DNA from: Bacteroidota bacterium | Lineage (GTDB): Bacteria; Bacteroidota; Bacteroidia; UKL13-3 | DNA: 64,000 nt | Assembly (NCBI GenBank): GCA_947477885.1 | Contig: CANJUD010000001.1 | Span: 296,632-360,631, forward strand | Direction: 5' to 3' | Shown here: positions 1-47,203 of the stretch, one piece after another | Layout: every line of letters begins with the position of its first letter | Numbering within the stretch: position 1 is the first letter of the stretch | The notes under the pieces: model-generated | The model's input: the letters and a program-made list of their open reading frames with translations, nothing else | Databases searched by the model: none | Told to the model about the DNA's origin: nothing | Program-made: the position numbers and the translations under genes

Positions 1-62
1 TTTCTAAAAATTTAAATATAATTATTTATGATATTAAATAAACTTGGTTTGTAATTCAATAA

Positions 63-1364
63 TTGAAATTAAAAAAAATAAAAAAGGTGCTTACAAAAAA
101 ATTTAAATTCATAGATTTATTTGCAGGACTTGGTGGTTTTCATATTGCGTTGCATGATTTAGGACATACATGTGTATTTGCCAGTGAAATAAATGAAGAC
201 TTGCGAGAATTGTATAAAGTTAACCATGGGGTTAAATGTAGTGGCGATATTAATGCAATCGAAGTTGAAAATATACCTAAGCATGACATAATTTGTGCGG
301 GGTTCCCTTGTCAACCGTTTTCAAAAGCTGGAAAGCAAAATGGGCTGGAAGATGTAACTAATGGTAATTTCTTTAACAGAATTATGGAAATAGCAGACCT
401 GCATAAACCAGAGTACATATTTTTAGAAAATGTTCCAAACCTGAAAGGGCATGATGATGGAAATACTTGGAATTATATCCATAAAAAGTTATCTGTTAAA
501 TATGAAGTTGCGGAAAAAGTTATGTCTCCTCATACATTTGGAGTTCCACAACATCGGTCAAGAATATATATAGTTTGCAGATTAAGATCAAAAGGTGGCT
601 TAAAGGATTTTGCATTTCCTGAGGGAGATTACAATGGAAAACTATCCATCAAATCTATAATAGAAAAAAAGCCAAAAGAGTATACAGCCATTAAGCCAGA
701 TTCCTTAAATCATATAAAAGTATGGCAAGAATTTTTAGATCATTTACAACCAGCAGAGGTGCCAAGATTCCCGATTTGGGCCATGGAATTTGGAGCGACC
801 TATCCTTATGAGGATTTAGCTCCTATCCAACTATCTGCGGATAATCTTAAAAAATTTAAAGGAAAATTCGGACAAAAAATTAAAGGCCATTCTTTTGATG
901 AAATATTGGAATGCCTACCTATATATTCGCAGATAGACCAAAAAGAATTTCCACATTGGAAAAAATATTATATTAGAGCTAATAGAGAATTTTATCTAAA
1001 ACATAAAAAATGGCTAGACAATTGGATTCCGAAAATTCTTGATTTCGAAAACAGTCACCAAAAATTCGAATGGAATTGCGGTAATAAAATTCCGTTGGAA
1101 ATTAATGACAAGATTTTGCAATTCAGACCTTCGGGCATTAGGGTAAAGATGCCAGATTTTTCCCCAGCCTTAGTTTTAACATCAACTCAAATCCCAATAT
1201 TCCCTTGGCTGGGTAGATATATGACACCAAGAGAAGCCTCGAAATTACAGTGTATGGATGGACTCAAAGAATTGCCAAGTACAACGGCAAAGGCATTCCG
1301 TGCATTTGGCAATGCAGTCAATGTTTGTGTTGTTAAGAACATTGCTAAAAATTTATTGAAATAA
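63..1364 (+). CDS. DNA (cytosine-5-)-methyltransferase of a restriction-modification operon
   Basis: Transfers a methyl group from S-adenosylmethionine to cytosine C5 and presumably marks host DNA as self. All hallmark C5-methylase motifs are visible: SAM-binding FAGLGG at residues 20-25, catalytic PCQPFS with Cys83, ENV near 121, QHRSR near 165, and a C-terminal FGNAV motif near residue 417. The target-recognition segment lies between the last two. Length 433 fits a stand-alone Dcm-type enzyme. An in-frame TAA at 60-62 closes the frame, so translation must begin at TTG 63 or GTG 87; no ATG precedes motif I. First of five closely spaced same-strand genes; the next starts 5 nt downstream. Family is certain; target sequence is unknown. 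Confidence 0.95.
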   Translation: MKLKKIKKVLTKKFKFIDLFAGLGGFHIALHDLGHTCVFASEINEDLRELYKVNHGVKCSGDINAIEVENIPKHDIICAGFPCQPFSKAGKQNGLEDVTNGNFFNRIMEIADLHKPEYIFLENVPNLKGHDDGNTWNYIHKKLSVKYEVAEKVMSPHTFGVPQHRSRIYIVCRLRSKGGLKDFAFPEGDYNGKLSIKSIIEKKPKEYTAIKPDSLNHIKVWQEFLDHLQPAEVPRFPIWAMEFGATYPYEDLAPIQLSADNLKKFKGKFGQKIKGHSFDEILECLPIYSQIDQKEFPHWKKYYIRANREFYLKHKKWLDNWIPKILDFENSHQKFEWNCGNKIPLEINDKILQFRPSGIRVKMPDFSPALVLTSTQIPIFPWLGRYMTPREASKLQCMDGLKELPSTTAKAFRAFGNAVNVCVVKNIAKNLLK

Positions 1365-5087: not shown

Positions 5088-6071
5088 ATGCAGTCAATGT
5101 TTAACATATTTCAAGAACTAAAAAAAACTTCATCAGCCCATGCTGATAGTTATAATATTGCGGCATTACCATTCATTAAGAATCATAAAATTGGTATATC
5201 TCAGAATGAATACCCGATTTTCTTTATTAAGTGTGAGGATTCGGAAAATGTAAAATCGATTGATTGTAATCTAGAATTTATATCAGTTCAATTCAATCGT
5301 TCTTGCCAACTTAATAATAAAAAGAAAGTTGAGGAAGGCATTTATACAATTATCTCATTAAAGACAGGTTCCGCTGACCTTCAAGAATATTTTTTGGAAG
5401 TTGTTTATTTAGTAGTTAAAAAACTTTCACAGACGCCAAATCATAAGGAACTAAAAATTGAGGTTGAAAAGTTGATTAATCTATTTAGCAAATTTTCACA
5501 GCCTCCTGTTAAAACTATACAGGGACTATGGGCAGAGCTATTAGTTATTGAACAGTCTGCCGATATTGACTATATGATACAAGCATGGCACATTTCTACT
5601 ACAGATAAATTTGATTTTAATGATGGAAAAGATAAGATTGAAGTTAAAAGCACTACAAAAAGCAGAAGAATTCATAGTTTTTCTATTGAGCAACTTAATC
5701 CAAATAAGAATTCCTTGTTAATTATTGCATCTGTTTTTGCTATTGAAACAGGAGTAGGTAAAAATATTTTTGGATTAGTTGATTTAATCGAGAAAAAATT
5801 AATGGATAAGAATTTAAGTTTTCGCATTAATGAAATTATTGCTCAAACTCTAGGTAAAGACTTTGAAAAATCTTTTGATGTATTTTATGATTATCAACTA
5901 GCAATTGATTCGATTGCATATTTTGACAGTATGGATATCCCGTCATTAAATTCAAAGGATATCCCAGAAGAAATAAGTAATGTGCGGTTTGATAGTGATC
6001 TAAGCAATATTCAGAATATTATTAAATGTAAAAACGAGTCAACTCTTCATAACTCATTATTTCAAAAATAA
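5088..6071 (+). CDS. PD-(D/E)XK motif nuclease (DUF4420-like)
   Basis: Probable restriction nuclease of the operon. The catalytic core is readable: an acidic Asp176 in KFDF followed by IEVKS with Glu185 and Lys187, preceded by a helix containing GLWAELLVIE (about 149-158) that supplies the usual upstream Glu. This arrangement and the 327-residue length match the PD-(D/E)XK family labelled DUF4420, which co-occurs with Z1 ATPases. The first 120 residues are beta-rich and may form an accessory or DNA-binding domain. The start ATG is 1 nt after the Z1 stop; gene 5 starts 9 nt downstream. Cleavage specificity and dependence on the two ATPases cannot be told from sequence. Confidence 0.82.
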   Translation: MQSMFNIFQELKKTSSAHADSYNIAALPFIKNHKIGISQNEYPIFFIKCEDSENVKSIDCNLEFISVQFNRSCQLNNKKKVEEGIYTIISLKTGSADLQEYFLEVVYLVVKKLSQTPNHKELKIEVEKLINLFSKFSQPPVKTIQGLWAELLVIEQSADIDYMIQAWHISTTDKFDFNDGKDKIEVKSTTKSRRIHSFSIEQLNPNKNSLLIIASVFAIETGVGKNIFGLVDLIEKKLMDKNLSFRINEIIAQTLGKDFEKSFDVFYDYQLAIDSIAYFDSMDIPSLNSKDIPEEISNVRFDSDLSNIQNIIKCKNESTLHNSLFQK

Positions 6072-6838: not shown

Positions 6839-7342
6839 ATGCATACAATCCGCAAACCCAACCGCCTCCAAGGCTACGATTACGCCACCAATAATCTGTA
6901 TGTTGTAACCTCCTGTGTAGAAGACAGGGTGTGTTGTTTCGGTGAAATAAATAATGGCGAAATGATTTTGAATGAATACGGCACCATCGCCCAACAGCAA
7001 TGGCATTGGCTGGGAGAACAATATTCATATATTATATTACATGCTTTCGTGGTGATGCCGAATCATATTCATGGTATTATTGAAATTAACGGTCCTTCTG
7101 TAGGGGCAGGTCGCGACCTGCCCCTACAGAAGGAATCCATTGTCAAAATAAAATCGTTATCCGAAATTATGGGTGCCTATAAAACAACCACGTCCAAGAA
7201 AATACATTTGTTGGGTTTGCAAGAATTCAGATGGCAACGTTCATTTCACGATCATATTATTCGTGATTTGAATTCGTATGAGAATATTACCAATTATATA
7301 AAAAACAATCCCAAGAAATGGGATGAAGATGATTTGAAATAA
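6839..7342 (+). CDS. REP-associated tyrosine transposase (RAYT, IS200/Y1 family)
   Basis: Single-strand DNA transposase of the Y1 HUH type. The HUH motif is seen in MPNHIHGII (about residues 75-83) and the catalytic tyrosine region in SYENITNYIKNNP near the C-terminus. The N-terminus (RLQGYDYATNNLYVVTSCV) is typical of RAYTs. Family knowledge: RAYTs are domesticated, non-autonomous relatives of IS200 that act on palindromic REP sequences. This gene contains a 42-bp perfect palindrome in its own coding region (7093-7134), translated as GAGRDLPLQKE and nearby residues. No IS ends are visible. It lies between the defence operon and the lytic transglycosylase gene, with a terminator directly after it. 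Confidence 0.9.
   Translation: MHTIRKPNRLQGYDYATNNLYVVTSCVEDRVCCFGEINNGEMILNEYGTIAQQQWHWLGEQYSYIILHAFVVMPNHIHGIIEINGPSVGAGRDLPLQKESIVKIKSLSEIMGAYKTTTSKKIHLLGLQEFRWQRSFHDHIIRDLNSYENITNYIKNNPKKWDEDDLK
7093..7134. repeat. 42-bp perfect palindrome inside the RAYT gene
   Basis: Two 21-bp arms meet at TCGCGA with no loop. The core of one arm reads GTAGGGGCAGGTCG. It is much more GC-rich than the surrounding gene and looks like an inserted REP-type repeat. The reading frame stays open through it. I see no second copy in the window. Confidence 0.85.
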
Positions 7343-9662: not shown

Positions 9663-10016
9663 TGCAGAATTTACGATTGCGGATGTGCGATTTACGATTG
9701 CTCAATAAGTCGATTAATTCTATTATAAACACGATCTAATTTCTAAAAAAATATGGCGGTAGCATGGTTCGACTCCACTTCGGCTTTCGCTCAGTGCAGG
9801 CAGCTCACCATGGCATCCGGTATTAAAAAATCAGGCGTCAGCAATCCTAAATCCCATATCCTATCCGCCGCGGCGAACTAAATCCCGAAGGGATGTCACT
9901 TATTTATAAAAAAGTAGCAACGCTTGCAAAAACCCCGAAGGGGTGGCATTATACATAAATCAGGCGTCAACCAAATCGTAAATCGTAAATCCTGCTCGCC
10001 GCGGCGGGGTAAATCT
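9663..10016. repeat. Repeat-filled intergenic region
   Basis: No gene is seen. The region holds an ATTTACGATTG short repeat near 9668-9702, one copy of a dispersed 80-bp repeat (9764-9842) and two direct copies of a CCCGAAGGG-RTG type unit (9881-9910 and 9931-9960). Two GC-rich CCGCGGCG patches lie near 9867 and 10000. This looks like an accumulation site for Bacteroidota intergenic repeats. Confidence 0.7.
9764..9842 (+). repeat. Dispersed repeat copy A
   Basis: Shares ATGGTTCGACT, CACTTCGGCTTTCGCTCAGT, GCAGG and a terminal TCAGGCGTCAGC with copy B at 40749-40830. The middle is less conserved. Both copies lie between genes. Confidence 0.75.
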
Positions 10017-12059: not shown

Positions 12060-13316
12060 TCACCCATTTGCAATCTCTTTCAAAGCCGCCACAAACTTAT
12101 CCAACTCCTCCGTGGTTATATATACATGTGGTGTAACCCTTACCCCATGCACATTTGCAGTGTCAATAGCTACCGTCCATATCTTATATTTATCCAATAA
12201 TACTTTGGCTAAATCTCCAGGTTTTATACCTTCAATTCCCACATTGGCAATGCCACATTTGCGATTATCATCTTCGGGTGTATTTATATATACTTTGCTA
12301 ATTCCTTTTACTTTGCTGGTCCAATAATTTTGAAGAAAACGTAAGCGTTCTTCCTTGCGTTTAATTCCTATTTTATTATGATAATCTATGGCATGATGTA
12401 TTGCAATATCGGTTGCTACAGGGTGCGTGCCTGTATGGTTTAGTTTACGTATATCGTCGTCGGGATATCCTGATTCTCCGTATATAGGCCACAAGTTTTT
12501 TATTTTGTCTTTTCTCACATATAATATACCTGCTCCCATGGGGGTGCCTAGCCACTTATGCGTACTGCTGCCATAATAATCGCAACCCAAATCACTTATT
12601 TTAAAATCGATATGGGCTATAGCATGGGCCCCGTCCACCATTACTTCCACACCTTTACTATGTGCCATATCACATATTTTTTTCACAGGTAATATTTGTC
12701 CAGTTATATTAATCATGTGGCAAATCATCAACAATCTGGTTTTAGGTGTGATGGCTTTTTCATATAATTCTACAATCTCTTCATCACTTGATGGATTCAA
12801 TGGGATAGATACTTTTTTATTTACGATTCCATAACGTTTGGCTTGTTGCTTGAACATGTCCAGCATGCTGCCATAATCTTGTTCTGCCATCACAGCTTCA
12901 TCGCTAGCTTTCCAATCAAATCCAGATATAATAGTATCTAATGATTCGGTAGTATTTCTTGTTATAATAAGTTCCTCTTTACTACAACCTAATAATTCTG
13001 CAAGTCGGTCTTTTATTTTTTGTTTGTTGTCAAATTGTATGGTACGCATATAATAAGATGCTTCTGTATTCACCATTCTGATTTCGTTGAGATATCCGTC
13101 CAATACAGGTCTCGCCATCATACTAAAATATCCGTTTTCCAGATTTATATAATCTTTTTTTAATATATATTCACTTCGAACCTGTTGCCAAAAATCGTCA
13201 AACTTTTGTGCAGTGAATTCTTCAGGCATTTCATCTATAATACTTTTTGCTTTGGCAGTAAAAGGTATTGCAGATGCCAGTAATAATGATTTAATAAAAT
13301 TTCTTTTGGTAAACAT
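12060..13316 (-). CDS. Secreted class V aminotransferase-fold PLP enzyme
   Basis: A PLP-dependent enzyme of the class V (IscS/isopenicillin-N-epimerase-like) group. The PLP lysine lies in STHKWLGTPMGAG (about residue 254) and the PLP-contacting Asp in VMVDGAHA (about 228). I choose ATG 13316 (MFTKRNF) over an upstream TTG at 13322: it leaves a 2-nt gap to the previous gene instead of an overlap and starts directly with a signal-like stretch (KRNFIKSLLLASAIPFTAKA). An RN-hydrophobic start of this kind suggests export, possibly by the Tat route as for other folded PLP proteins. It follows the SRPBCC gene as a two-gene unit. The substrate is unknown. Confidence 0.85.
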   Translation of the reverse strand: MFTKRNFIKSLLLASAIPFTAKAKSIIDEMPEEFTAQKFDDFWQQVRSEYILKKDYINLENGYFSMMARPVLDGYLNEIRMVNTEASYYMRTIQFDNKQKIKDRLAELLGCSKEELIITRNTTESLDTIISGFDWKASDEAVMAEQDYGSMLDMFKQQAKRYGIVNKKVSIPLNPSSDEEIVELYEKAITPKTRLLMICHMINITGQILPVKKICDMAHSKGVEVMVDGAHAIAHIDFKISDLGCDYYGSSTHKWLGTPMGAGILYVRKDKIKNLWPIYGESGYPDDDIRKLNHTGTHPVATDIAIHHAIDYHNKIGIKRKEERLRFLQNYWTSKVKGISKVYINTPEDDNRKCGIANVGIEGIKPGDLAKVLLDKYKIWTVAIDTANVHGVRVTPHVYITTEELDKFVAALKEIANG

Positions 13317-13318
13317 AA

Positions 13319-13765
13319 TCAAGTTTTTTCTATCATAATTTTAGCCAGTTTCATAGCTGTAATAAGTTGACTCAAATATATATTTTTATATAATGGAAAC
13401 ATTAACGAATTCCACAAACTATTTTTGAGAACTATATTATTTGTTTGCGTCCATAAAGTTCCTTCGTCCTGCTTTTCGTAAGTCCAAGAACCACCAGCAG
13501 CTTGGATGAGGGATGATTGTATATCTTTGGCTTGCAGCGAAGTTTTATTCGGTCTTTGTTCAAGTTTGTATTCCAGTGTCATGGTAGTGCTGCCTTTCAT
13601 TTTTAACTTCACCATTCTTTTGGGTTTGGTTTGCAATACTTCTGCTTTCACCACGGTTTTATCCCATTTTTTTCTGTTATCATAGTTTTGGGTATAGTCC
13701 CACACTTGTTCAGGACTTCTTTTAATAAAAATGGAATGTTTGATATTGATGGTATTGGACTTCAT
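13319..13765 (-). CDS. SRPBCC-fold (START/polyketide-cyclase-like) protein
   Basis: A 148-residue protein of the SRPBCC helix-grip fold. Recognition rests on the N-terminal strand IKHSIFIKRSPEQVWDYTQN, the WDKTVV turn and the C-terminal long helix (SQLITAMKLAKIMIEK). These proteins bind hydrophobic ligands; nothing indicates which one. It is upstream of, and nearly abuts, the class V aminotransferase gene (stop TGA at 13319-13321, next ATG at 13316), so the two are likely cotranscribed. It is divergent from another SRPBCC gene at 13876, suggesting an old duplication. Confidence 0.8.
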   Translation of the reverse strand: MKSNTINIKHSIFIKRSPEQVWDYTQNYDNRKKWDKTVVKAEVLQTKPKRMVKLKMKGSTTMTLEYKLEQRPNKTSLQAKDIQSSLIQAAGGSWTYEKQDEGTLWTQTNNIVLKNSLWNSLMFPLYKNIYLSQLITAMKLAKIMIEKT

Positions 13766-13875
13766 TGGTGAATCTGTATTTGCTTGGGCAAAAGTACTCT
13801 TTTTTAGGAAAGGGCTTTGTTTAGTTTTGAAAATTATCCTTTTACTTCGCAGTTCACTTTTTAACCCAAAAAATT

Positions 13876-14412
13876 ATGCAAATACTCAAAAAAATTATCA
13901 TTGGGCTTGTCACAGTTATCTTGTTGTTGATACTGATAGCTTACTTGTTGCCCAACAGCTGCATAGTTACACGCACTGTTGAAATTAATGCCCCAGTGGA
14001 AGTGGTGTATGCCCAAGTAGCTGATTTTAATCATTGGAACAGCTGGAGCCCGTGGTACAGGAAAGACACTACAATGAAACAAACAATTATTGGAACAGCA
14101 GGTATGGGTAAACATTTGATGAAGTGGGAAAGTGATAAAAAAGAAGTAGGGCATGGGAGTATAGAATTTGACAAAGTGGTACAAAATAACAGTATTGATG
14201 CCACACTTGCTTTCGATGAAATGAAAATGCAGTCGACTATGATGTACCGATTTGAGCCTACTGCTGCAGGTACCAAAATTACCTGGAGTGATTCTCTTAA
14301 TTTAGGCTATAACCCCATGATGCGTTGGGCAGGTTTGTTTATGGATAAAATGATGGGTCCTGATTTTGAGGCAGGTCTTAAAAATATGAAAGAAGTTTCG
14401 GAGAAAAAGTAA
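13876..14412 (+). CDS. Membrane-anchored SRPBCC family protein
   Basis: A single N-terminal transmembrane helix (about residues 5-26) precedes an SRPBCC domain. Family features are RTVEINAPVEVVYAQVADFNHWNSWSPW near the start and the sequence TKITWSDSLNLG later, as in polyketide-cyclase/dehydrase-like Bacteroidota proteins. The domain is most likely periplasmic or facing the membrane; the ligand is unknown. The gene is monocistronic, divergent from the SRPBCC/aminotransferase pair, and followed by a terminator at 14467. Confidence 0.85.
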   Translation: MQILKKIIIGLVTVILLLILIAYLLPNSCIVTRTVEINAPVEVVYAQVADFNHWNSWSPWYRKDTTMKQTIIGTAGMGKHLMKWESDKKEVGHGSIEFDKVVQNNSIDATLAFDEMKMQSTMMYRFEPTAAGTKITWSDSLNLGYNPMMRWAGLFMDKMMGPDFEAGLKNMKEVSEKK

Positions 14413-14466
14413 ATCCTAATAAGATTTAACCAATAATTACAACTATATAAGTTGTGATTTTTCATT

Positions 14467-14494
14467 AGCCCTTACAATTTGTATGGGCTTTTTT
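14467..14494 (+). terminator. Terminator after the SRPBCC gene
   Basis: AGCCC / GGGCT stem continued by TACA / TGTA, followed by six T residues. It lies about 55 nt after the stop codon. Confidence 0.65.
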
Positions 14495-14615
14495 ATTTAC
14501 CCGCTTTTTTTAATGTATAAATAATTTAAATAAACATTCTACTTTTGAACCGTACTGAGATTGGGATGGCTACAACTCCACAATTCTCAGTAAGAAAATC
14601 TCATGGCTCTAAGTT

Positions 14616-15578
14616 TTGCTGTTTTCTTTAGTGTTCGGCCTTCTATTTTTGTTTACCTCTCATCAGTTATTTAAGAAAAATCAAAGTTTAATTGTTGAAT
14701 CCAAAAAACCTTTAAACCCCTTTATCTGCGATCAGCCCTTTATTAACCCCGTCTTATCATGTGTTGGCGAACTCCATGAATTGAAACCTTTCAAGTCCAA
14801 AATTCAAAATATTGTTGATGCGGCCAAAGCACAAGGCAAGGCAAAGGAAATATCTGTTTTTTTTAGATCTATGACTAACGGGTATTTGTTCGGTATTAAT
14901 AGAAGAGAAAAGTATTATCCAGCTAGTTTGTTGAAAGTACCTGTTATGATGGCCTATCTCAAGCAAACTGCTATGGTTCCTGGCTTGATGGACAAAAAAA
15001 TCAAATTTGAAAAACCATTTACCGGCGTTCCACCCAATATGGTCGCTAATAAAATTGAACTTGGTAAAGAATATACCATTAAGGAGCTTATCGAAAAAAT
15101 GGTGGTTGTTTCTGACAACGATGCCACACTATTACTGAATGACAATATAGATCCATCAGCATATAGTAACACACTTAAGGAGCTGGGACTATCTATTCCT
15201 GAACGAAGTACCCCTGACAATAACTTTATGGGTGTTGAGGATTATGGCAGGATATTACGTATTTTATATAATTCATCTTATCTTAACAGGGATTTAAGCA
15301 ATTTTGCTTTAATACTTTTAAGTAAAGCCCAATATGGAGATGGAATAGTATCAGGTACTGGAAGCAAACAAGTGGCTCATAAGTTTGGGGAATGGATGTA
15401 TAATGGAGAATATCAGCTTCATGATTGCGGAATAATATATGATGCTGACCAGCCCTATATGCTATGTGTAATGACCAAAGGTAAAGATATTAAAGTTTTA
15501 GCAAGTGTAATAGCTGAAATTTCAAAGACCGTAAGTGAATTAGTAATTAACAATAATATCCCATTATTAGAAAAATAA
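14616..15578 (+). CDS. Secreted class A beta-lactamase-fold serine hydrolase
   Basis: A serine hydrolase of the beta-lactamase/transpeptidase fold. The SxxK motif is SLLK (Ser104, Lys107) and the SDN motif is Ser166-Asn168. The third motif, usually KTG, reads KFG (256-258). I see no clear Glu166-type omega-loop motif, so true beta-lactamase activity is doubtful and a role on cell-wall peptides is as likely. The start is TTG 14616, after an in-frame TAA at 14610-14612. It gives a good hydrophobic signal (LLFSLVFGLLFLF-like). An ATG at 14603 is in another frame, so a small frameshift near the start is possible. A bidirectional terminator follows. Confidence 0.8.
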   Translation: MLFSLVFGLLFLFTSHQLFKKNQSLIVESKKPLNPFICDQPFINPVLSCVGELHELKPFKSKIQNIVDAAKAQGKAKEISVFFRSMTNGYLFGINRREKYYPASLLKVPVMMAYLKQTAMVPGLMDKKIKFEKPFTGVPPNMVANKIELGKEYTIKELIEKMVVVSDNDATLLLNDNIDPSAYSNTLKELGLSIPERSTPDNNFMGVEDYGRILRILYNSSYLNRDLSNFALILLSKAQYGDGIVSGTGSKQVAHKFGEWMYNGEYQLHDCGIIYDADQPYMLCVMTKGKDIKVLASVIAEISKTVSELVINNNIPLLEK

Positions 15579-15581
15579 AAA

Positions 15582-15604
15582 AACGGCCACTTTTGATGGC
15601 CGTT
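15582..15604. terminator. Bidirectional terminator between serine hydrolase and ssb
   Basis: An 8-bp perfect stem AACGGCCA / TGGCCGTT with a 7-nt loop, preceded by A-rich sequence, between two convergent genes. Confidence 0.65.
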
Positions 15605-15628
15605 GCTAAAATTAATCTATTATAATGC

Positions 15629-15973
15629 TTAGGCTGCGGGTTTGTGACCAAGCAATAATATATCGTTTACTACAATTTCAGTAACATAACGTTTTTGACC
15701 TGTTTTGTCTTCATAATTGCGGGTTACAATTTTACCTTCAACTGCAATTTCTTTTCCTTTTTCAAGGGTTTTGCTCAAAGACTTGGCTTTGTTGTTCCAC
15801 ACTACCAAGTTGTGCCATTGGGTTTCCTGCACATACTTGCCTTCTGCATTTTTGTAGCTTTCGTTCGTGGCTAAAGAAAAACGCATAAGCATTTTGTCTT
15901 GTCCGAATTCTTTGATTTCTGGTGCTTGTCCGATGTTGCCGATCAATTGCACGGTGTTTTTTAAATTACGCAT
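15629..15973 (-). CDS. ssb: Single-stranded DNA-binding protein, short form
   Basis: An OB-fold ssDNA-binding protein acting in replication and repair. Family features are NTVQLIGNIGQAPEIKEF at the N-terminus, the aromatic motif TQWHNLVVWNNKA, and VEGKIVTRNYEDKTGQKRYVTEIVV. At 114 residues it lacks the usual long glycine/proline-rich linker and the acidic DDIPF-type tail that recruits partner proteins. It is therefore probably a secondary SSB, and the housekeeping copy may be elsewhere. It stands alone and is convergent with the serine hydrolase gene. Confidence 0.92.
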   Translation of the reverse strand: MRNLKNTVQLIGNIGQAPEIKEFGQDKMLMRFSLATNESYKNAEGKYVQETQWHNLVVWNNKAKSLSKTLEKGKEIAVEGKIVTRNYEDKTGQKRYVTEIVVNDILLLGHKPAA

Positions 15974-16142
15974 AGTAAATTGTTAATTAAATTGTTTAAT
16001 AAATATGTAAATTGTTTTGTCGTTTTGTTGACGGTGCAAAATTGTAGGATCCCAAAATACTTTGTCGGTAAGCAAGCAATTACTTTCGGATAAAAATGTT
16101 TGTAAGCGTTTGCAAACGGGAATTTTTTCGTACTATTGTGGC

Positions 16143-16496
16143 ATGGAAATGCAATGCCAAGAGTGTGGTACCGCCCTAAAAGGTCGTGCCGACAAAAAAT
16201 TTTGCGACGATGCCTGCCGCAATTTATTTAACAATAAAAAAAATAGCGATACCTCCGCTTATATGAAAAAAGTAAATAATATTCTGCGAAAAAACCGATT
16301 GGCTCTGGTAAAATTAAACCCAGAAGGGAAAGCAAAAGCCAGTAAAAAGCAACTCACCAATCTAGGTTTTAATTTTGATTATTATACTTCAACCTTTACC
16401 AATAAAGATGGCAAGACTTATTTCTTTTGTTATGAGCATGGTTATTTGCCCATAGAAAATGAATATTATTTTTTGGTGGTGAAGAAAGGGGAGTAA
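16143..16496 (+). CDS. Small zinc-ribbon protein, conserved hypothetical
   Basis: A 117-residue cytosolic protein. A zinc ribbon is visible at the start: CQECG and CDDAC form a four-cysteine site, as in DUF2116-like ribbons. A basic helical region follows (MKKVNNILRKNRLALVKLNP), then an aromatic C-terminal domain (FNFDYYTSTFTNKDGKTYFFCYEHGYLPI). I choose ATG 16143 rather than a TTG at 16062, because the 27 extra residues are unlike the conserved start MEMQCQECG. It may bind nucleic acid; the function is unknown. It is divergent from ssb. Confidence 0.75.
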   Translation: MEMQCQECGTALKGRADKKFCDDACRNLFNNKKNSDTSAYMKKVNNILRKNRLALVKLNPEGKAKASKKQLTNLGFNFDYYTSTFTNKDGKTYFFCYEHGYLPIENEYYFLVVKKGE

Positions 16497-16598
16497 AATA
16501 GTTGTGAGGTGAAATTCCCACAGAAACTGTGGAATTTTGTACTTGCATAGATTGATTTTAGTGTTTTCATTTGCTTCCGATTAGACAAAACATACAAA

Positions 16599-16802
16599 TT
16601 GGTTATGAAGAAGATACTTATTTTATTAATTATGCTTTTTACACTAGGGATGAAGATGAATGCACAGTATTGGATTCCTTCAAATAATTTAACAACCTCA
16701 ACTAGCAGCCTAGTAAATTTTACGATTCCAACAAGGAACACCAATTCTACCCCCGCATATATATATATATATACTCCCACAAGGACTGCGGCGAAACTGT
16801 AA
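16599..16802 (+). CDS. Possible small secreted peptide or truncated gene
   Basis: A 67-residue frame whose first 23 residues form a credible signal peptide (MKKILILLIMLFTLG core, cleavage near NAQ), followed by a Thr/Ser/Asn-rich stretch. The last ~15 residues are encoded by the AT dinucleotide tract (IYIYTP) and the start of the duplicated segment. I read it as the 5' end of a secreted-protein gene cut off by that segment; it may not be translated. Low confidence. Confidence 0.3.
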   Translation: MVMKKILILLIMLFTLGMKMNAQYWIPSNNLTTSTSSLVNFTIPTRNTNSTPAYIYIYTPTRTAAKL

Positions 16803-17106
16803 AGTTTCTTTCATATCATCCTTTCACGCCACAAAAAATTCATCTTTCGTCCCATCAGAAGATGGTTCTGATGGTAAACCCCCTTTCTCGTCAAAAAACC
16901 TTCATCTTTCAGCGATGTTCTATGGTGTAGATGGTGCATTAAGCTGGAACCTGGCCAAGATATATATATATTGTAGTAAAAAGCCAATCCAATAATTAAA
17001 CCTATACAAAACAACACATAACTAGAAAGGAGAAAAAATGCAAAAATGAAAATCCTTTGGAAAAACACTCTTCTAGCTTTATCTTCGTTTTATAAGAATG
17101 GGCAAA
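16756..17106 (+). repeat. Duplicated upstream segment, copy 1
   Basis: Aligns by eye, with indels, to the reverse complement of 46769-47010. Shared landmarks are an AT tract then CCCACAAGG-CTGCGG, TTCTTTCA..TCCTTTC, AACTAGAAAGGAGA versus AACAAGAAAGGAGA, ATGAAAATC-TTTGG, and GTTTTATAAGAATGGGCAAA versus GTTTTATAAGAATTGGCAAA. It ends about 40 nt before the lipoprotein start at 17147; copy 2 ends about 40 nt before the small secreted protein start at 46729. Confidence 0.7.
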
Positions 17107-17150
17107 GATTACTTTTTAGATTCGATAACGATTTTAATAAAAAAAAATGA
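17046..17150 (+). CDS. Possible 34-residue leader peptide overlapping the lipoprotein start
   Basis: A frame MKILWKNTLLALSSFYKNG... ends in TGA that overlaps the next ATG as ATGA (17147-17150), the classic coupling arrangement. In the paralogous copy 2 the equivalent frame stops after nine codons (MKIIWRTLY), so coding is not conserved. Probably fortuitous. Confidence 0.2.
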   Translation: MKILWKNTLLALSSFYKNGQRLLFRFDNDFNKKK

Positions 17151-17749
17151 AAAAGATACAAATATTAGTAATACTAGGAATACTTTTGTCAATCACAAGA
17201 TTGTTTAGTGGTTGTCAAGATAAACCACCAGCTTCACCCACACCAAATCCTGCAACTGCCGGCTCTCCAGTCTCACCAATAAATGTTACTCTTACTGAAT
17301 TCAGTCAAGCTGACTTGCCCAATATGTGTCAATGGGATGCGTCAATTGCTGCAGATATTTTCGTTAATGTATGCACATATACTTGGGACGCAAACGCAAA
17401 CCCTGCTGCATGGGTGCCTCAAGTGGTAAGTACAATTCAAAAGTCAAATACAAATATAGTTAATGCAAATGGCGTAATGACATTGAGTAATTTGAATCTA
17501 CCTGTGGGCTGTGATTATTTTTTATATGTTGAAATTAGGTATAAAGACTGTAGTACCTGCTGCGGACGTACTAACCTTCAAGCTTTTAATAACCAATGGA
17601 CGGCGATCGGTTGTCCTTTGCTATGGAATCAAAATGTCGAACAGGGCAAGCCATCAATTTTTCTCAGTACAGCTGTTCTCCGCCCGGGCACTGGCACTAC
17701 TTCTATCGCTGTCTCATTTGACCATCTCACATGCAATTGTAATTGTTAA
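17147..17749 (+). CDS. Small Cys-rich lipoprotein, unknown function
   Basis: Not recognised. A lipoprotein signal with lipobox LFSGC ends at Cys23, followed by a Pro/Ser/Thr linker (KPPASPTPNPATAGSP). The remaining ~160 residues hold many cysteines (MCQW, VCTY, GCDY, CSTCCGR, IGCP, CNCNC), suggesting a disulfide-rich or metal-binding domain outside the cell or on the outer membrane. It starts 6 nt upstream of a second lipoprotein gene with only a short gap between the two, so they are probably one transcript. The promoter region is the duplicated segment at 16756-17106. Confidence 0.7.
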   Translation: MKKIQILVILGILLSITRLFSGCQDKPPASPTPNPATAGSPVSPINVTLTEFSQADLPNMCQWDASIAADIFVNVCTYTWDANANPAAWVPQVVSTIQKSNTNIVNANGVMTLSNLNLPVGCDYFLYVEIRYKDCSTCCGRTNLQAFNNQWTAIGCPLLWNQNVEQGKPSIFLSTAVLRPGTGTTSIAVSFDHLTCNCNC

Positions 17750-18547: not shown

Positions 18548-18568
18548 TTTTTATATTTCTTAATAAAA

Positions 18569-18599
18569 AAAGCAGTGTACTCAAAAGGTACGCTGCTTT
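18569..18599 (+). terminator. Terminator after the lipoprotein pair
   Basis: A 12-bp stem (AAAGCAGTGTAC / GTACGCTGCTTT, one G-T pair) with a 7-nt loop, flanked by an A-run and a T-rich side, 20 nt after the stop. Confidence 0.7.
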
Positions 18600-18660
18600 C
18601 TCATATTAAAAACTCCTTAATCTTCCTCGCCACCTCAGCCAACTCTTCTTGGCTCATAAA

Positions 18661-18696
18661 AAAAAGCCCCAAAGTATTGCTACCTTGGGGCTTTTT
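18661..18696 (-). terminator. Terminator of ald
   Basis: A 12-bp stem AAAAAGCCCCAA / TTGGGGCTTTTT, extended by three more pairs, followed on the minus strand by T-rich sequence. It lies about 20 nt after the ald stop codon. Confidence 0.75.
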
Positions 18697-18715
18697 ATTA
18701 TAATAGTTTTTTTAA

Positions 18716-19849
18716 TTAAGCGTATGTTTCGGTAGTTGCTGCAAGAAAGCTATTCACATCAGCCAAGGGTAATCCAAAAGCTTCGGCTACTCCTTGATAA
18801 ACCACTTGTCCATCGATAATATTCAATCCCAATTTTAAATCGGGCATGTCTTTGCAGGCTTGTTTCCATCCTTTGTTTGCAAGTTGCAATGCATAAGGAA
18901 GCGTAGCATTAGTTAATGCTAGTGTAGAAGTGTAAGGAACTGCACCAGGCATATTCGCAACGCAATAATGTATTACATTATCTATTACATAAGTAGGCTC
19001 GGCATGGGTAGTAGGTTTCGAGGTTTCAAAACAACCACCTTGGTCAATTGCTACGTCTACGATTACAGCACCAGGTTTCATTGTAGGCAACATGGCACGG
19101 GTAATCAAATGAGGAGCTTTGGCACCCGGAATCAATACACCACCAATTACTAAGTCGGCAGTTTTAATGGCACGACGAATATTGTACTCATTGCTATATT
19201 CTGTTTGCACATTAGCTGGCATGGTATCATCCAATTGTCTCAAACGGTTCAAGCTAATATCCATAATAGTTACATGTGCACCTAGTCCGGCAGCCATTTT
19301 AGCAGCTTGTGTACCAACGATTCCACCACCAAGCACAATTACTTCAGCAGGTTTAACACCAGGAACGCCACCTAATAAGATACCGCGACCGCCCATTGGT
19401 TTTTCTAAATATTTGGCACCTTCTTGTATACTCATCCTCCCTGCTACCTCGCTCATTGGAACTAGAAGTGGAAGTGCACGGTCACGTTCTACGGTTTCGT
19501 AAGCAAGACACACGGCACCACGTTCAATCATGGCGTGCAATAATGGTTCGTAACTGGCAAAGTGGAAATAAGTAAACAGCAATTGGTCTTTCTTAATCAG
19601 GCTATATTCTGATGCGATAGGCTCTTTAACTTTAATTATCATTTCGGCAATGGCATATACTTCCTCGATAGTAGGAAGAATTTTTGCTCCGGCCTGCACA
19701 TATTCTTCGTCGCTAAACCCGCTGCCGATACCAGCAGTAGCTTGTATGTATACAGTGTGATTGTGTTTTACAAATTCAGCGGTGCCTGCGGGTGTAAGTG
19801 CCACGCGGTTTTCGTTGTTTTTAATTTCTTTAGGTACTCCAATAATCAT
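18716..19849 (-). CDS. ald: Alanine dehydrogenase
   Basis: Catalyses NAD-dependent reversible conversion of L-alanine to pyruvate and ammonia, linking amino-acid and carbon metabolism. Residues expected of the family are present at the expected positions: Arg15 in NENRVALTP, Lys75 in KVKEP, His96 in FTYFHFA, and the NAD-binding VIVLGGGIVGTQAA near 170. Length 377 is normal. A TAnnTTTG box (19874-19881) lies 24 nt upstream and a strong terminator downstream, so it is monocistronic. Confidence 0.96.
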   Translation of the reverse strand: MIIGVPKEIKNNENRVALTPAGTAEFVKHNHTVYIQATAGIGSGFSDEEYVQAGAKILPTIEEVYAIAEMIIKVKEPIASEYSLIKKDQLLFTYFHFASYEPLLHAMIERGAVCLAYETVERDRALPLLVPMSEVAGRMSIQEGAKYLEKPMGGRGILLGGVPGVKPAEVIVLGGGIVGTQAAKMAAGLGAHVTIMDISLNRLRQLDDTMPANVQTEYSNEYNIRRAIKTADLVIGGVLIPGAKAPHLITRAMLPTMKPGAVIVDVAIDQGGCFETSKPTTHAEPTYVIDNVIHYCVANMPGAVPYTSTLALTNATLPYALQLANKGWKQACKDMPDLKLGLNIIDGQVVYQGVAEAFGLPLADVNSFLAATTETYA

Positions 19850-19873
19850 ATTATATTTATTTATTTAAGGGTG

Positions 19874-19881
19874 CAAAATTA
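19874..19881 (-). promoter_or_regulatory. -7 box upstream of ald
   Basis: TAATTTTG on the minus strand matches TAnnTTTG, 24 nt before the ald start codon. No clear -33 TTTG was identified. Confidence 0.4.
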
Positions 19882-20030
19882 GGGAGCAATGGGCTTATTC
19901 GATAAAGAAAAATGGATTCGCGAATCAGGATTTAGGGTTTTGGAATATGCATTTTGGATATTATTATTATTGAAGCGAGGGTATCTTGGCGTAAGCCCCC
20001 GAATCCTCCATCCCGAATCCTGATTCCTCC

Positions 20031-20402
20031 TTAATTCTTCGGTAAAATAATTCCTTTTAAGTAAATGGTATGGGGTTGGCTAATAGCATTGCTATATACC
20101 AAAAAACTTTTTATAGTGCTGCCCTGAGGCCTGCCTTTTGAAGTAAACTTTACCGTAATTGTGCCTTCACCTCCGGGTGGAATAGGGTCTTTAGAAAATG
20201 ATGATACCAAACAGAAACACTGGGGAGGTACTTTATTGATGATAAGCGGCTGGTCGCCCGTATTTTTAAAAGTAAAAGTATGGGTAACAACCGTTCCCTC
20301 TTTGATGGAGCCAAAGTCGTATTTCTCAGAATCGAATTGAATATTCGGCCCGCTCAATTCAACAATTGCAGCAAATAATAATATGGCTAATCCTTTGAAC
20401 AT
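20031..20402 (-). CDS. DUF1573 domain protein
   Basis: A secreted single-domain protein. After a hydrophobic signal (MFKGLAILLFAAIVELSG) comes a typical DUF1573 sequence: FDFGSIKEGTVVTHTFTFKN-like strand pattern, then GDQPLIINKVPPQCFC and GGEGTITVKFTSKGRPQGSTIKSFLVYSN. DUF1573 is an ASH/Ig-like fold common in Bacteroidota periplasmic proteins with no established role. ATG 20402 is preferred over 20450, because the 16 extra residues precede the signal peptide. It lies downstream of the PhoD-like gene's end on the same strand, 73 nt away, as a separate unit. Confidence 0.85.
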   Translation of the reverse strand: MFKGLAILLFAAIVELSGPNIQFDSEKYDFGSIKEGTVVTHTFTFKNTGDQPLIINKVPPQCFCLVSSFSKDPIPPGGEGTITVKFTSKGRPQGSTIKSFLVYSNAISQPHTIYLKGIILPKN

Positions 20403-20475
20403 TATATAATAGAGGTGCTTTGCAGGCAAAGATAAACCTAGGTACACCAATTTTCCTAATTTAGCAACCCTTTTG

Positions 20476-21948
20476 TTATTGAAGCTCCTGTTGGTTAATG
20501 GTAAATTCCCATTTTAGTTCGCCTTTGGTATTATAACATTTAATCAGAAGATTCCTGTTATTCTTAGCTCCTGATACAGTGAGTTGACAATAGTTAGGTT
20601 CGGTAACTAGGGTTTGTTGTATTCGCAATGGGTTTGCTGCTTCTTTGGTTTTTAATACATTGCTTCCTTTACTGGTCATAGGTGAGCAGGTGAGCTCATA
20701 ATATATTTTCCCATGGGGAGCTTCAGGTTCGTCTTCTTCAGAATTTACTGTAGTGTTCTTTTCGTTGGTTTTGTTTTTCTTTTCTTTTTTCTTTTTTTCT
20801 TTAATAGGTGTAGGCCCGGCATTTTTTTGAGAACTGTCTCCCACTTCAAGTTTTAATATTTCGGTATGATGCCTGTCTCCAGTCATAAAAATAACCCCTT
20901 TAATATTCATATTGGTAATAAAATCCAACAATTCTTTTCGTTCCTTTAAATATTGTACATATGACTCTTGCTCAGTATTTGAATTGAGAAATTGACCACC
21001 CATTACTATAAATTTAAACGAAGCACGCGATGATATCAATGACTGTTTTAACCAATCTAATTGTTTGCAGCCCAACTGTGTTTTATGCGGTAACAAGCTA
21101 TCGGGCATGTCGTCGTCGTCTCGGAAATAACGATTATCTAGCAAAAAGAAATCACAATCACTCCATTGCATTTTACTGTATATGCCTTCTCCATCTTGGC
21201 CATAAGTTTTGTTGCCCCAATATTCTTTAAAAGTTTGCAGTGTTGTATTTTTTAGTTCGTATGTTTTGCAAGAATTATTGGGTCCGTAATCATGGTCGTC
21301 CCATATGGCATAATTGTTTTTTGTTGCCAAAAGTTTCTGCAAGTCTTTCTGTTTTCGGGTATGATAATATCTATATTTAATTCCGCTCTCACTGCTCATA
21401 TCCACTTCTCTTAGATAAGTGTTATCGCCCAACCATAGCATAAACTGGCCTGGGGTTTCGGCCATGCTTTTAAATATTTGTGGGCTTTGGCCGTAAGGTT
21501 CGCCTGGGCGGTCATATATAGAATCGTTAATATAGGCACAACTGCCCGTAACAAAACTAAATGTGGGTGCATCTTTACGAAACTCCCACAGTTCCTTGGT
21601 TTTGAATTTGAGTGGGATATCTGTTTTATAATGAGCTTCGTCCAAAGTCAATTTGTACCTATATGTTTTGCCGGGTTCAAGGTTAGGTATAATAATCTTA
21701 GTGATATTATGGTCGCAGATTTCATTGCTTTTCGTATAATAAGATACCTCGCCTTTTATTAAAGTATCCGATTCGCAGCTATAATTCAATTTAATTTTTT
21801 TAGCACATTTTGTCATTACCCATACCAAGCATTCGCGATGCTCAGCGTAGCCAAGCATGGGGCCTGCCAATACACGGGGAGTTTGTGCAAATGCAAACCG
21901 ACTAAGAATGAGAAAAATTGGTAGTGTCATGAGTAGCCTTTTCTTCAT
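20476..21948 (-). CDS. PhoD-like phosphatase/phosphodiesterase
   Basis: A secreted metallophosphoesterase of the alkaline phosphatase D type. The signal peptide ends near FAFA-Q (residue 22). An N-terminal Ig-like domain (PRVLAGPMLGY...VWVMT) precedes the catalytic domain with GSCAY, WLGDNTYLRE, WDDHDYGPN, MGGQFLNS and MTGDRHHTE, all normal metal-site segments. Just after the last motif is an unusual low-complexity Lys/Glu/Asn-rich insertion of about 40 residues (KEKKKKEKKNK), probably a disordered loop. It presumably hydrolyses phosphodiesters or phosphomonoesters outside the cytoplasm. Confidence 0.9.
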   Translation of the reverse strand: MKKRLLMTLPIFLILSRFAFAQTPRVLAGPMLGYAEHRECLVWVMTKCAKKIKLNYSCESDTLIKGEVSYYTKSNEICDHNITKIIIPNLEPGKTYRYKLTLDEAHYKTDIPLKFKTKELWEFRKDAPTFSFVTGSCAYINDSIYDRPGEPYGQSPQIFKSMAETPGQFMLWLGDNTYLREVDMSSESGIKYRYYHTRKQKDLQKLLATKNNYAIWDDHDYGPNNSCKTYELKNTTLQTFKEYWGNKTYGQDGEGIYSKMQWSDCDFFLLDNRYFRDDDDMPDSLLPHKTQLGCKQLDWLKQSLISSRASFKFIVMGGQFLNSNTEQESYVQYLKERKELLDFITNMNIKGVIFMTGDRHHTEILKLEVGDSSQKNAGPTPIKEKKKKEKKNKTNEKNTTVNSEEDEPEAPHGKIYYELTCSPMTSKGSNVLKTKEAANPLRIQQTLVTEPNYCQLTVSGAKNNRNLLIKCYNTKGELKWEFTINQQELQ

Positions 21949-22084
21949 ACTGCAATAATAAATATAAAGAGGTTAATAAACGGTTGCTGTTTTATTGTCA
22001 CTTTGCGGATAGTCAGTAATCATTGGGCATTAAACTATAGTCAATAGTGTTAACATATATTGTGACGGAAGTTAACAATGGTAA

Positions 22085-23086
22085 TTATATATTCTTTACC
22101 TCGATCGTAATCTTACCCAATAAAGGTAAAAGTACAAAAGCACCTAAGCCTGCCCAAGCGCCAAAGAATATATAAACTATTATAGAAATTAATATACAAT
22201 ATATAGGATACGCAATTAATAGCATTCCAAATAGCACGGAGTCGTAGAATACAGAATTTTTTGTAAATTTTTTGGCCAAACTCTTTACAGGAAAAAAAAT
22301 GGGACCATTCAAGATAAAACCAATAAACGCAGGGATCCCCAATAATATACAATAAAGTACTTTGTTAACTCCTTTTACTGCTTTAAACATTTCAAAATCT
22401 CCATGATGGAATTGTTGTTCAAATGATTCAACAGATACCTCATCGGGTTTTATAATTATATTTGGATGCAACTGGGCATATAATAGTTTGTTAAATTCTA
22501 GAATATTTTTTCCGTTCAATTCGGTACTTGCAAATTGGTCAGCGGTGATCGGTTCACCAAATTTGAGTACCAATCTTTTGCCAAATTTTTTGTACGAACT
22601 AATACTGATACCCACAGGCTGCACTACTAGTTGGTGGCCAATCTGCGGATGGTTCCATCCCTGAAATGCCAGGCGTGCTGTACCTTTCTTAAGTGAACGC
22701 AATTTCCATTCATTCTCGCTACTGCCCTCTGAAAATATCAGTACCGCTTCTTTGTCAATCATTACCTTTTTACTAATATTGAAAGTCTCATCATTCAAAC
22801 TCAGGTTTTCTTTTCCTTCGCTCAACCTATATATAGGAATTGCATAGATGCCTTCCAATATTTTCTTAGCTCGAGGTTTTTTAAACGCATCTCCTCGGGT
22901 AAGTATGTGTACGGGCACATCAAACAAAGTGCACAAGGTAACCCCATCTATAAATGCATCAGGATGTGTGCATGCCAGTATTATAGGGCCAGGATGTTTT
23001 AATACCTCTGGCTTGTTTATATATATTTTCCTGTAGAAAAACATACGGGTCAATGCCGCCATAAATCTTGCAAACCTATATAACAT
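22085..23086 (-). CDS. PlsC-like acyltransferase
   Basis: A membrane-associated lysophospholipid/glycerophosphate acyltransferase. The acceptor-site motif is HPDAFID (His41, Asp47; the H-x5-D spacing of the NHPSxxxD subgroup) and the second motif is IFSEGSS (about 118-123). Two C-terminal hydrophobic stretches (about 245-265 and 285-325) anchor it in the inner membrane. ATG 23086 lies only 4 nt after a TAnnTTTG box, so either the mRNA is leaderless or translation starts at Met9 or Met15. It acts in phospholipid or lipid A-related synthesis (family inference). Confidence 0.85.
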   Translation of the reverse strand: MLYRFARFMAALTRMFFYRKIYINKPEVLKHPGPIILACTHPDAFIDGVTLCTLFDVPVHILTRGDAFKKPRAKKILEGIYAIPIYRLSEGKENLSLNDETFNISKKVMIDKEAVLIFSEGSSENEWKLRSLKKGTARLAFQGWNHPQIGHQLVVQPVGISISSYKKFGKRLVLKFGEPITADQFASTELNGKNILEFNKLLYAQLHPNIIIKPDEVSVESFEQQFHHGDFEMFKAVKGVNKVLYCILLGIPAFIGFILNGPIFFPVKSLAKKFTKNSVFYDSVLFGMLLIAYPIYCILISIIVYIFFGAWAGLGAFVLLPLLGKITIEVKNI

Positions 23087-23090
23087 GGTG

Positions 23091-23098
23091 CAAAGGTA
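23091..23098 (-). promoter_or_regulatory. -7 box abutting the PlsC-like gene
   Basis: TACCTTTG on the minus strand ends 4 nt before ATG 23086, so transcription would begin at the start codon. Confidence 0.45.
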
Positions 23099-23531
23099 GT
23101 TTGGGAAATTTGGATTCGGGGGTCGGGATTCAGGATTCGGGGAAAATGCTTTTGTGTATGGAAGAAAATCCTGAGGAATGAAATTATTCTATCGCCATTT
23201 TAAGGTTTGGGTCTCAAATGCTTCTTTTGTATCATAATTTCATTCCTTCGGGATTTGGGGTGCTTATGGGATGAAAATATGTAAAATAGATTATAAAAGC
23301 ATTTTTATATTAGCATAATAACCAAAAATATCCCAGAATCCCGAATCCCGAATCCCGAATTGTACATCATTTTTCCTAATTTTCATTTTTCGGACAAAAA
23401 TATCTTCCATTTTATGAAAATATTAAAGAATCATCTTTAATATTTAACATTTCAGCTATTATTTTACAAAATTTAGCTCAAAATTATCCAATTATTATTC
23501 ACATTTGAATATTTGAAAGGCTAAAACTTGC

Positions 23532-33132: not shown

Positions 33133-33759
33133 AAATATGTTTTTGTACCTACAGTTTATTTATATGCTCCCCACCTTTCTTAATAAAAAAAGAGGTGTGA
33201 ACTTTCCGACAGTTCCCTCAGAAGCAGGTACGAGAATACCCAAACACGAAAGAATTGAAGAAAAGAACACACCCCTAGGCGGGGTGCATCCCATTCAACA
33301 AAAAGTCATGTTTTGCAAATTTCTCGTTTAGCTTCTGACCGTTTTGTTTAAATGAATGCTATATATATTTTATGTATTTTAAATTTCTTAGCTGACAAAG
33401 CTAACCCCAAAAATAATACCTACCAAATTGTTAACTTTTGTCAAAAAAACCACGGGGTTTTCTACTACGTCCTAATCCTTATTTATCAATATCTTACAAA
33501 AAAACTACCATTTTTAGGCACTAAAAATGTCGTATTTCCGCCACTTTTACTCAGTTCAAATAGCATTAACCTAATTCATTTGCCCATGGTTGGTGTTTTC
33601 ACCAATCACAATAAACCCACCATCCACTTTTTTCATACCGCTTGCAAGCTTTTTTTCAAAAAAAGGCGTCTAACAAAATAACCTTTCAAAACAAACCTTA
33701 AACCTTCATCTCTCAATGCACAGTGAACTAACACACCTGCATAATCATACATTAGACCT

Positions 33760-40748: not shown

Positions 40749-40830
40749 ATGGTTCGACTACACTTCGGCTTTCGCTCAGTGCAGGCTGCTCAACACACAA
40801 CCACATGCTGTGTGTATATCAGGCGTCAGC
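40749..40830 (+). repeat. Dispersed repeat copy B
   Basis: Matches copy A (9764-9842) in ATGGTTCGACT, CACTTCGGCTTTCGCTCAGT and the terminal TCAGGCGTCAGC, with a variable middle. It is followed by tandem AAATCGT motifs and lies between the epimerase gene and ftsK. Confidence 0.75.
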
Positions 40831-40865
40831 AAAATCGTAAATCGTAAATCGTAAATCATTCAATG

Positions 40866-46131: not shown

Positions 46132-46138
46132 ATGGCTG

Positions 46139-46288
46139 CCTCTGGTTGGTGTGGTGAGCGGAGTCGAACCATCACCGACCAGAACCCTGTTCATTAAAGT
46201 ATCATATAAATATTCTGCATCGAGGCTGCAATAGATAGCACCGGCATCTCGTCTCCGAAATGTGGTTGGTGAAAACACCAACCACAGG
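46139..46288. mobile_element. 150-bp MITE-like repeat element with inverted ends
   Basis: Ends CCTCTGGTTGGTGT (46139-46152) and its inverse (46275-46288) match at 13 of 14 positions. The right end carries a perfect hairpin, TGTGGTTGGTG / CACCAACCACA with an AAAA loop (46261-46286). An internal part reads GGTTCGACTCCGCTCACC on the minus strand and relates to the 9764 and 40749 repeats. It encodes the last 28 residues of the gene at 46202. No transposase. Confidence 0.65.
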
Positions 46289-46729
46289 CAAAAAATCATA
46301 TGCATCAGTGCAAGGATTTGCACTTGTATACCCAAAATTGCAACTAAAAGAAAAAGTCCCTTCGCCCATTGGAACACATATAGTGGTGCATGTAGTGATC
46401 GGATCAACGCCTGTTAAGATAATTGGAGGCATATCTGGTCTCGTTGTCCATGTAAATGGACCAGTTCCACTTCTCTGCATTATTGTTATCTTAGCTGGAA
46501 ATGATGCCGGTATAGCAGTCACACAAAAAGTTATCGGCACTTTTTTAATTTGACCATTCACAGAACACAGATCAATCGTATTGACACCTGAACAGCCATT
46601 CTTAGTTAAAGACCATCCGCCAATATTGACAGATACATAGGCTGGGCAAACTCCCTGAGAGAAGACAGAATTTGAAGCTATTAATAGGATAAAAATAGAA
46701 ATGACTCTAAAAGTTAATATTTTTTTCAT
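46202..46729 (-). CDS. Small secreted Cys-rich protein with repeat-encoded C-terminus
   Basis: Not recognised. The signal peptide is about 1-24 (NSVFS-Q). The body to about residue 147 contains eight or so cysteines (GVCPAY, NGCSGVNTIDLC, FCVTAI, TTCTTICVP, SFSCNF). From residue 148 on (LPVVGVFTN... to CRIFI) the sequence is encoded by the 150-bp repeat element at 46139-46288, so the natural C-terminus is probably lost and replaced. Upstream lies the duplicated segment (46769-47010). It may be secreted and may be damaged; function unknown. Confidence 0.6.
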   Translation of the reverse strand: MKKILTFRVISIFILLIASNSVFSQGVCPAYVSVNIGGWSLTKNGCSGVNTIDLCSVNGQIKKVPITFCVTAIPASFPAKITIMQRSGTGPFTWTTRPDMPPIILTGVDPITTCTTICVPMGEGTFSFSCNFGYTSANPCTDAYDFLPVVGVFTNHISETRCRCYLLQPRCRIFI

Positions 46730-47203
46730 TTTTGTTATTTTTTAATTGATATTGAAACAAGATTTTTTTTTGCCAATTCTTATAAAACAAAGTTAGAGCT
46801 AGTAGAGTGTTCTCCAAATGATTTTCATTTCTTTGTGTTATCTCCTTTCTTGTTAAGTTGATTTATTTGTGACGGAAAGGATGGCCTTGAACTAAAACAT
46901 GCCATTGCCAAGGCAAAAATGAATGTTCTGTTGCCGTAAAGAAAGGAGTGAAAGAAGATTTAGATATTGCCCGCAGCCCTTGTGGCAGTATATATATAAT
47001 ATATATATATGGGTGAGGGGTTGAGGTCTAATGTTCATAATAGAGTTGTAATATAGAACAATTTAGGGGTTATGCAAATTTATTCTTTTTCAAAAAAGTA
47101 GTTCTAAAATTACATGACCACTAAAATGCAAAAAAGGTTGCATAGGGCTAAAATATTTTTTAAGACATGCTAAAAAATTAGTAATAATACAAAATAACTA
47201 CAC
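46730..47203. other. 474-nt region holding the duplicated segment, copy 2
   Basis: No gene is seen. It contains the diverged inverted copy (46769-47010) of 16756-17106, with an AT dinucleotide tract at 46988-47010. The rest (47011-47203) is AT-rich with nothing recognised. Confidence 0.55.
46769..47010 (-). repeat. Duplicated upstream segment, copy 2
   Basis: Read on the minus strand, it starts with an AT tract, then CTGCCACAAGGGCTGCGGGC, and ends with TTTTATAAGAATTGGCAAA about 40 nt before the ATG at 46729. Landmarks and order match copy 1 at 16756-17106 with many small differences and indels. Confidence 0.7.

Follow-up and report, generated by a model that had tools for sequence, protein, structure and literature searches.

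The window analysed here, a stretch of 64,000 nucleotides, contains two inverted copies of a segment that is, in our judgement, rather probably a diverged promoter and 5′-leader module. It would belong to the type IX secretion regulon and have been placed before unrelated lineage-specific genes by duplication or recombination, rather than being what remains of a gene family. In its full form, this module would begin with the promoter of an ECF sigma factor of type IX secretion (SigP-like), followed by a housekeeping -7 box, then by a TA tract and a conserved core. After the core would come about 170-370 nt of leader, then, for five copies out of seven, an extended Shine-Dalgarno sequence and a mini-ORF; the downstream gene would start some 100-120 nt further on.

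Homology, in inverted orientation, links 16756-17106 (+) to 46769-47010 (-), with 75-81% identity over three blocks. A repeat search of the window aligned 16764-16847 with 46915-46998 (84 nt, 75%), 17050-17106 with 46769-46825 (57 nt, 81%) and 17016-17064 with 46810-46858 (49 nt, 80%). The similarity proposed in the original prediction is therefore real, as witnessed when region 16740-17146 was compared with the whole source genome (3.1 Mb in 25 contigs): the matches comprised the second place in the window (E 1.3e-18 and 5.2e-11) as well as a further copy, the third, on another contig (E 1.6e-20). The segments had been said to end about 40 nt before start codons, and this is correct, with ATGs at 17147 and 46729 and a distance of 40 nt. 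The homology of the leaders runs on to the ATG of the downstream gene and ends at this start codon. Counted from the core, the leader of copy 1 is homologous at offsets -16..74 and 243..385 to that of copy 2, and at offsets 205..449 to that of copy C2a, on another contig. At copy 2, homology also covers a further 170 bp or so of upstream sequence, reaching a promoter region absent from copy 1. With more copies, a leader that extends to the ATG and a promoter at copy 2, the finding goes beyond what had first been described. A coding three-base periodicity does not explain the similarity, because the frame downstream of the TA tract differs among copies; a peptide encoded upstream and read through the tract was discarded on the same ground.

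Seven copies of the module were identified among three genomes of the genus, five of them in the genome of the window and two in a sister species (G001). In the former, the core (TA)n-CT[CG]CCA[CT]AA marks copy 1 (W1, window 16764, +), copy 2 (W2, window 46998, -), C2a (C2:7064, +), C2b (C2:297353, -) and a copy on contig C10 (C10:84452, -); in the latter, the copies are G001:C174 and G001:C5, the core of which has diverged. In G002, one contig ends at the same TATACTG and this may be a cut copy of the module. The sample is small, seven copies in all, several of which are related by descent. The genome of the window has five TA tracts of 8 units or more, and the core is found at four of them. 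A scan of 84,980 species with the exact pattern returned a single match, unrelated to the module, which therefore appears to be restricted to the genus at that stringency. Viral contigs gave no match to the pattern, and collections of phages and plasmids none to the module.

When complete, the module comprises a promoter-like pair, a -7 box, a (TA)n tract followed by the core CT[CG]CCACAAGG, and an extended Shine-Dalgarno sequence with its mini-ORF. W2, C2a and G001:C5 have in common the full order of landmarks, namely TGCAACC-N17-GTCATG, TAnnTTTG, TTATG, tract, core, leader, GAAAGGAGA and the ATG of the gene, located 259-319 nt 3′ of the core. C2b and C10 display only the part that goes from the -7 box to the core, with neither the ECF-like motif nor the Shine-Dalgarno block. 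W1 and G001:C174 keep the core and the Shine-Dalgarno block, and neither promoter element was found within 260 nt upstream of their tract. In copy 2, all on the reverse strand, an interrupted (TA)n tract (46989..47010) precedes the core CTGCCACAAGGGCTGCGG (46971..46988), and the leader extends over 259 nt from core to start codon (46730..46988). In copy 1, on the forward strand, the (AT)n tract (16757..16773) is followed by the core CTCCCACAAGGACTGCGG (16774..16791) and by a leader that reaches the start codon (16774..17146), as delimited by homology with copy 2 and C2a. There, the tract runs into the 3′ part of a short exported ORF (MKKILILLIMLFTLGMKMNAQ...NSTPA, 16605..16802, +), creating an abrupt left boundary, and the sequence to the left of the tract has no homology to the other copies. 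This ORF is probably a truncated gene, and W1 starts at the tract within it as if recombination had removed the promoter.

The promoter-like element TGCAACC-N17-GTCAT of copy 2 (47114..47142, -) is the only match in the window, where 0.17 would be expected, and the -7 box TAAATTTG (47075..47082, -) is found 72 nt before the TA tract. A box of the form TAnnTTTG is present 47-74 nt before the tract in five copies out of seven; the -7 box of Bacteroidota has been published as TANNTTTG (PMC6847099). The upstream motif TGCAACC-N17-GTC is present in three of the seven copies, W2, C2a and G001:C5, which are its only exact matches in the three genomes, together with a weaker one at G001:C184. A sequence profile of the module, run on 23 genomes, produced weak additional matches with the common part TGCAACC-N17-GGTCTT. 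Some of them precede ruvA, with sprA behind it (in G000 and in G002), or porQ (in G002), genes named with NCBIfam equivalog models, at an individual E of 0.0009 to 0.06, so that the module and genes of the type IX machinery have a promoter motif in common, for ruvA-sprA in two species and for porQ in one. SigP of Porphyromonas gingivalis has been found to bind at the promoter of ruvA and to control sov/sprA (PMC4800418). The module resembles this regulon in the motif that it has in common with ruvA-sprA(sov) and porQ, and in the export of the products. It differs from it in its motif, TGCAACC-N17-GTC, which, compared by eye, does not match the published P. gingivalis SigP motif, while a long leader with TA tract and Shine-Dalgarno block is not described in that work (PMC4800418). 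As the motifs differ, we infer, rather than read directly, that W2, C2a and G001:C5 belong to a regulon corresponding to that of SigP and type IX secretion, with a putative SigP-like ECF sigma factor.

Shine-Dalgarno sequences are rarely used in Bacteroidota, and the known exception is rpsU, with an extended sequence pairing below -13 kcal/mol that is read by ribosomes free of bS21 (PMC9976891). In five of the seven copies, an extended Shine-Dalgarno sequence with a mini-ORF is found about 100-120 nt upstream of the real gene. The block is conserved above its surroundings, GAAAGGAGA being the longest invariant run across four leaders (column-shuffle p 0.0008). Assuming a 16S tail of the Bacteroidia type, the predicted pairing of the five leaders with the anti-Shine-Dalgarno sequence amounts to -13.4, -13.4, -13.3, -12.9 and -8.1 kcal/mol, including -13.3 for AGAAAGGAG in leader 1 (17024..17032, +) and -13.4 for AGAAAGGAG in leader 2 (46842..46850, -). 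The same AGAAAGGAG occurs three times in the window against 0.25 expected, always within the two leaders, once in antisense. Among 38 genes of the window the median predicted value is -0.55 kcal/mol, with one other strong case, a transposase-like gene: this ORF (6839-7342, +), REP-associated or IS200-like by eye, has the Shine-Dalgarno sequence AAAGGAGG at -13.2 kcal/mol, unlike all other window genes examined. The pattern of the block was also followed outside the module, where five of nine matches were read besides C2a and G001:C5; four were coding, and one was in an upstream position without other module parts.

This sequence is located 99-121 nt upstream of the main ATG and not directly before the regulated start codon. 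In four of the five leaders it is followed by a start codon that opens an ORF of 3-7 codons; these mini-ORFs differ among copies, and the leader without a well-placed start codon is that of copy 2. In copy 1, the stop of the mini-ORF MQK* (17038..17049, +) overlaps the start of a second small ORF of 34 aa (17046..17150, +), the TGA of which overlaps the ATG of the main gene (ATGA), an arrangement met in this copy only. A likeness to rpsU would lie in the predicted pairing, at about -13 kcal/mol with the assumed 16S tail in the four leaders that carry GAAAGGAGA and -8.1 in the fifth, in a phylum where Shine-Dalgarno sequences are otherwise rare. The module differs in that its sequence, located some 100-120 nt upstream of the main gene, would serve at most a mini-ORF, and in that the genes are not ribosomal. 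Transcription would proceed through the leader, and the Shine-Dalgarno sequence and mini-ORF would exert translational control. That the leaders form a small regulon beyond rpsU, with mRNAs carrying extended Shine-Dalgarno sequences and mini-ORFs that are preferred by bS21-free ribosomes and coupled to the type IX sigma factor, the module being copied before new genes as a ready-made control of export, is a proposal to which we give little credence.

Each of the seven copies precedes an ORF beginning with ATGAAA, and six of the seven products have an export signal (signal peptide or lipoprotein signal, by eye). The W1 gene (17147..17749, +) codes for an exported lipoprotein-like protein of 200 aa, the W2 gene (46202..46729, -) for an exported protein of 175 aa, and both products, without family, contain 11 Cys. 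The two had been described as Cys-rich exported proteins without clear similarity, and the description holds for this pair: BLASTP detected no similarity between them, nor among the other products, and Pfam and NCBIfam gave no family where tested. The expectation that copies throughout the genome would precede short exported genes of this kind stands for the presence of an ORF and, in most cases, for export, but fails for length and Cys content. Products range from 89 to 790 aa, with 0 to 16 Cys, two of them having none; that of C2a is a small membrane protein of 89 aa without Cys, that of G001:C5 a protein of 790 aa with a type IX-like tail. At its 3′ end, the W2 gene extends into a repeat with a GGTTGGTG palindrome. 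Palindromes GGTTGGTGTTTTCACCAAYC are present in the window at 33588-33607 and 46264-46283, and the second, in the 3′ end of this gene, may have altered the C terminus of the product. The C2b copy and its gene are located directly after rpsC (L031 2115-3917); in the standard ribosomal protein operon, rplP is the gene expected there.

Comparison with the sister species indicates that both sites in the window are variable slots. Regions 12500-16499 and 18693-23130 are collinear in G001, which has a restriction-type island between these flanks in place of the W1 insert. At W2, the flanks end at 46133 and restart at 47206, and G001 has 5.4 kb of other DNA in between. An ortholog of the C2a gene exists at G001:C184 (78% over residues 11-88), non-syntenic, between other genes. 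The promoter region is retained there; some 390 bp, beginning shortly before the tract and ending close to the gene start, are missing, a difference that would reflect either gain of the leader in one species or its loss in the other. Beside the W1 insert, the window retains the last part of a HIT-family gene together with the terminator of that gene (18568-18654), a remnant of the 3′ end whose intact counterpart is present at G001:C184; a terminator apparently common to W1, C2b and G001:C184 was dismissed, as this remnant partly explains it at W1. Other traces of accessory DNA were noted. The ORF at window 5088-6071 resembles an ORF of the G001:C228 (L149) island that fills the W1 slot, hence one accessory module would be found in different slots. 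A motif GTTCGACTCC...GCTCACCA is repeated, with 94% identity, at window 9764-9810 and 40749-40795, near other short repeats (9956-9991 and 40815-40850).

Of the readings that had been offered for the repeated segment, a shared regulatory region is the best supported, with homology that stops at the ATG, unrelated genes, and a promoter-like motif in common with ruvA-sprA and porQ. A resemblance by chance between AT-rich upstream sequences, named at the outset as a possible refutation, is excluded for all practical purposes: TA tracts are of low complexity and weak matches with them abound, but the bulk of the alignment between copies 1 and 2 lies outside the tract, blocks outside it match between loci at E 1e-12 to 1e-25, and the core pattern was found 4 times versus 0 in the reversed control. 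The lack of relationship between the proteins leaves a paralogous family of cassettes, understood as one with homologous genes, without support. One could still imagine an old family of exported proteins, in which the regulatory region was retained and the coding parts drifted too far apart to be recognised. Export signals in six products out of seven, several Cys-rich proteins and the fact that all products are lineage-restricted or without family would fit this scenario, which we nevertheless find unlikely, with leaders still 65-80% identical before proteins that have no similarity, differ in length as widely as 89 and 790 aa, and include a membrane protein without Cys (C2a) and a large one with a type IX-like tail (G001:C5).

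The idea of a mobile unit with a swapped gene fares better in part, as copies are dispersed, the slots are variable and the C2a gene lies elsewhere in the sister species with its promoter, without the 390-bp leader. A DNA element or cassette with defined ends, carrying or capturing genes, would also accord with copy 1, which stops abruptly on its left at the TA tract, and with the IS200/IS605-family transposase gene (L032 2742-3185) that adjoins, in divergent orientation, the C10 copy. Yet this transposase is near one copy only, no dedicated recombinase was found, left boundaries vary among copies, neither the aligned copies nor the comparison with the sister species revealed terminal inverted repeats or target duplications (one empty site being uncertain), and the phage, plasmid and viral collections searched gave no match, so that such an element seems to us improbable. 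We favour unspecific duplication and recombination, because boundaries differ and no ends were found, among few copies. The closest precedent is that of mobile promoters, or promoter propagation, similar promoter regions before non-homologous genes within or between genomes (Matus-Garcia et al., 2012; van Passel et al., 2014), as summarised in PMC8049555. The module likewise places a homologous, putative promoter region before unrelated genes; compared with that summary, it differs in having copies that are 65-80% alike, with a leader of 250-450 nt that bears its own landmarks, and in favouring genes of exported proteins. Recent, near-identical copies of the module were not found, identity per block being 64-94%, the highest values over short core stretches only. 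Finally, the leaders are long and their UA repeats fold into a hairpin in every copy, as would suit a riboswitch or thermometer built around the TA tract, but we hold such a structured regulatory RNA to be very unlikely: the sequences on either side of the tract pair no better within a copy than across copies (permutation 46%), which led us to reject a conserved hairpin around the tract, sequestration of the Shine-Dalgarno sequence exceeds that of shuffles in copy 2 only (a helix of 10 bp), and Rfam gave no match at gathering score, with sub-threshold matches at chance level. The tract also recalls phase variation by simple sequence repeats, as a slippage-prone dinucleotide tract located upstream, with lengths that differ between loci, but it lies in the leader rather than between promoter boxes; tuning by its slippage is speculative.

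What is read from sequence comprises the homology and number of the copies, the order of their landmarks, the conservation of the Shine-Dalgarno block, the lack of relationship between products, the variability of the slots and the motif of ruvA-sprA and porQ; statements about mechanism have the same basis. A regulatory promoter and leader module common to unrelated genes is the simplest account. Duplication and recombination in variable slots would join the module to unrelated lineage-specific genes, which would thereby share a regulator with sprA and porQ, the long leader probably controlling their translation. The leaders would provide candidate mRNAs, beyond rpsU, for the use of Shine-Dalgarno sequences in a phylum where ribosomes normally hide the anti-Shine-Dalgarno sequence. 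In this genus, genes without relatives may thus join an existing secretion regulon via a complete promoter and leader placed before them.
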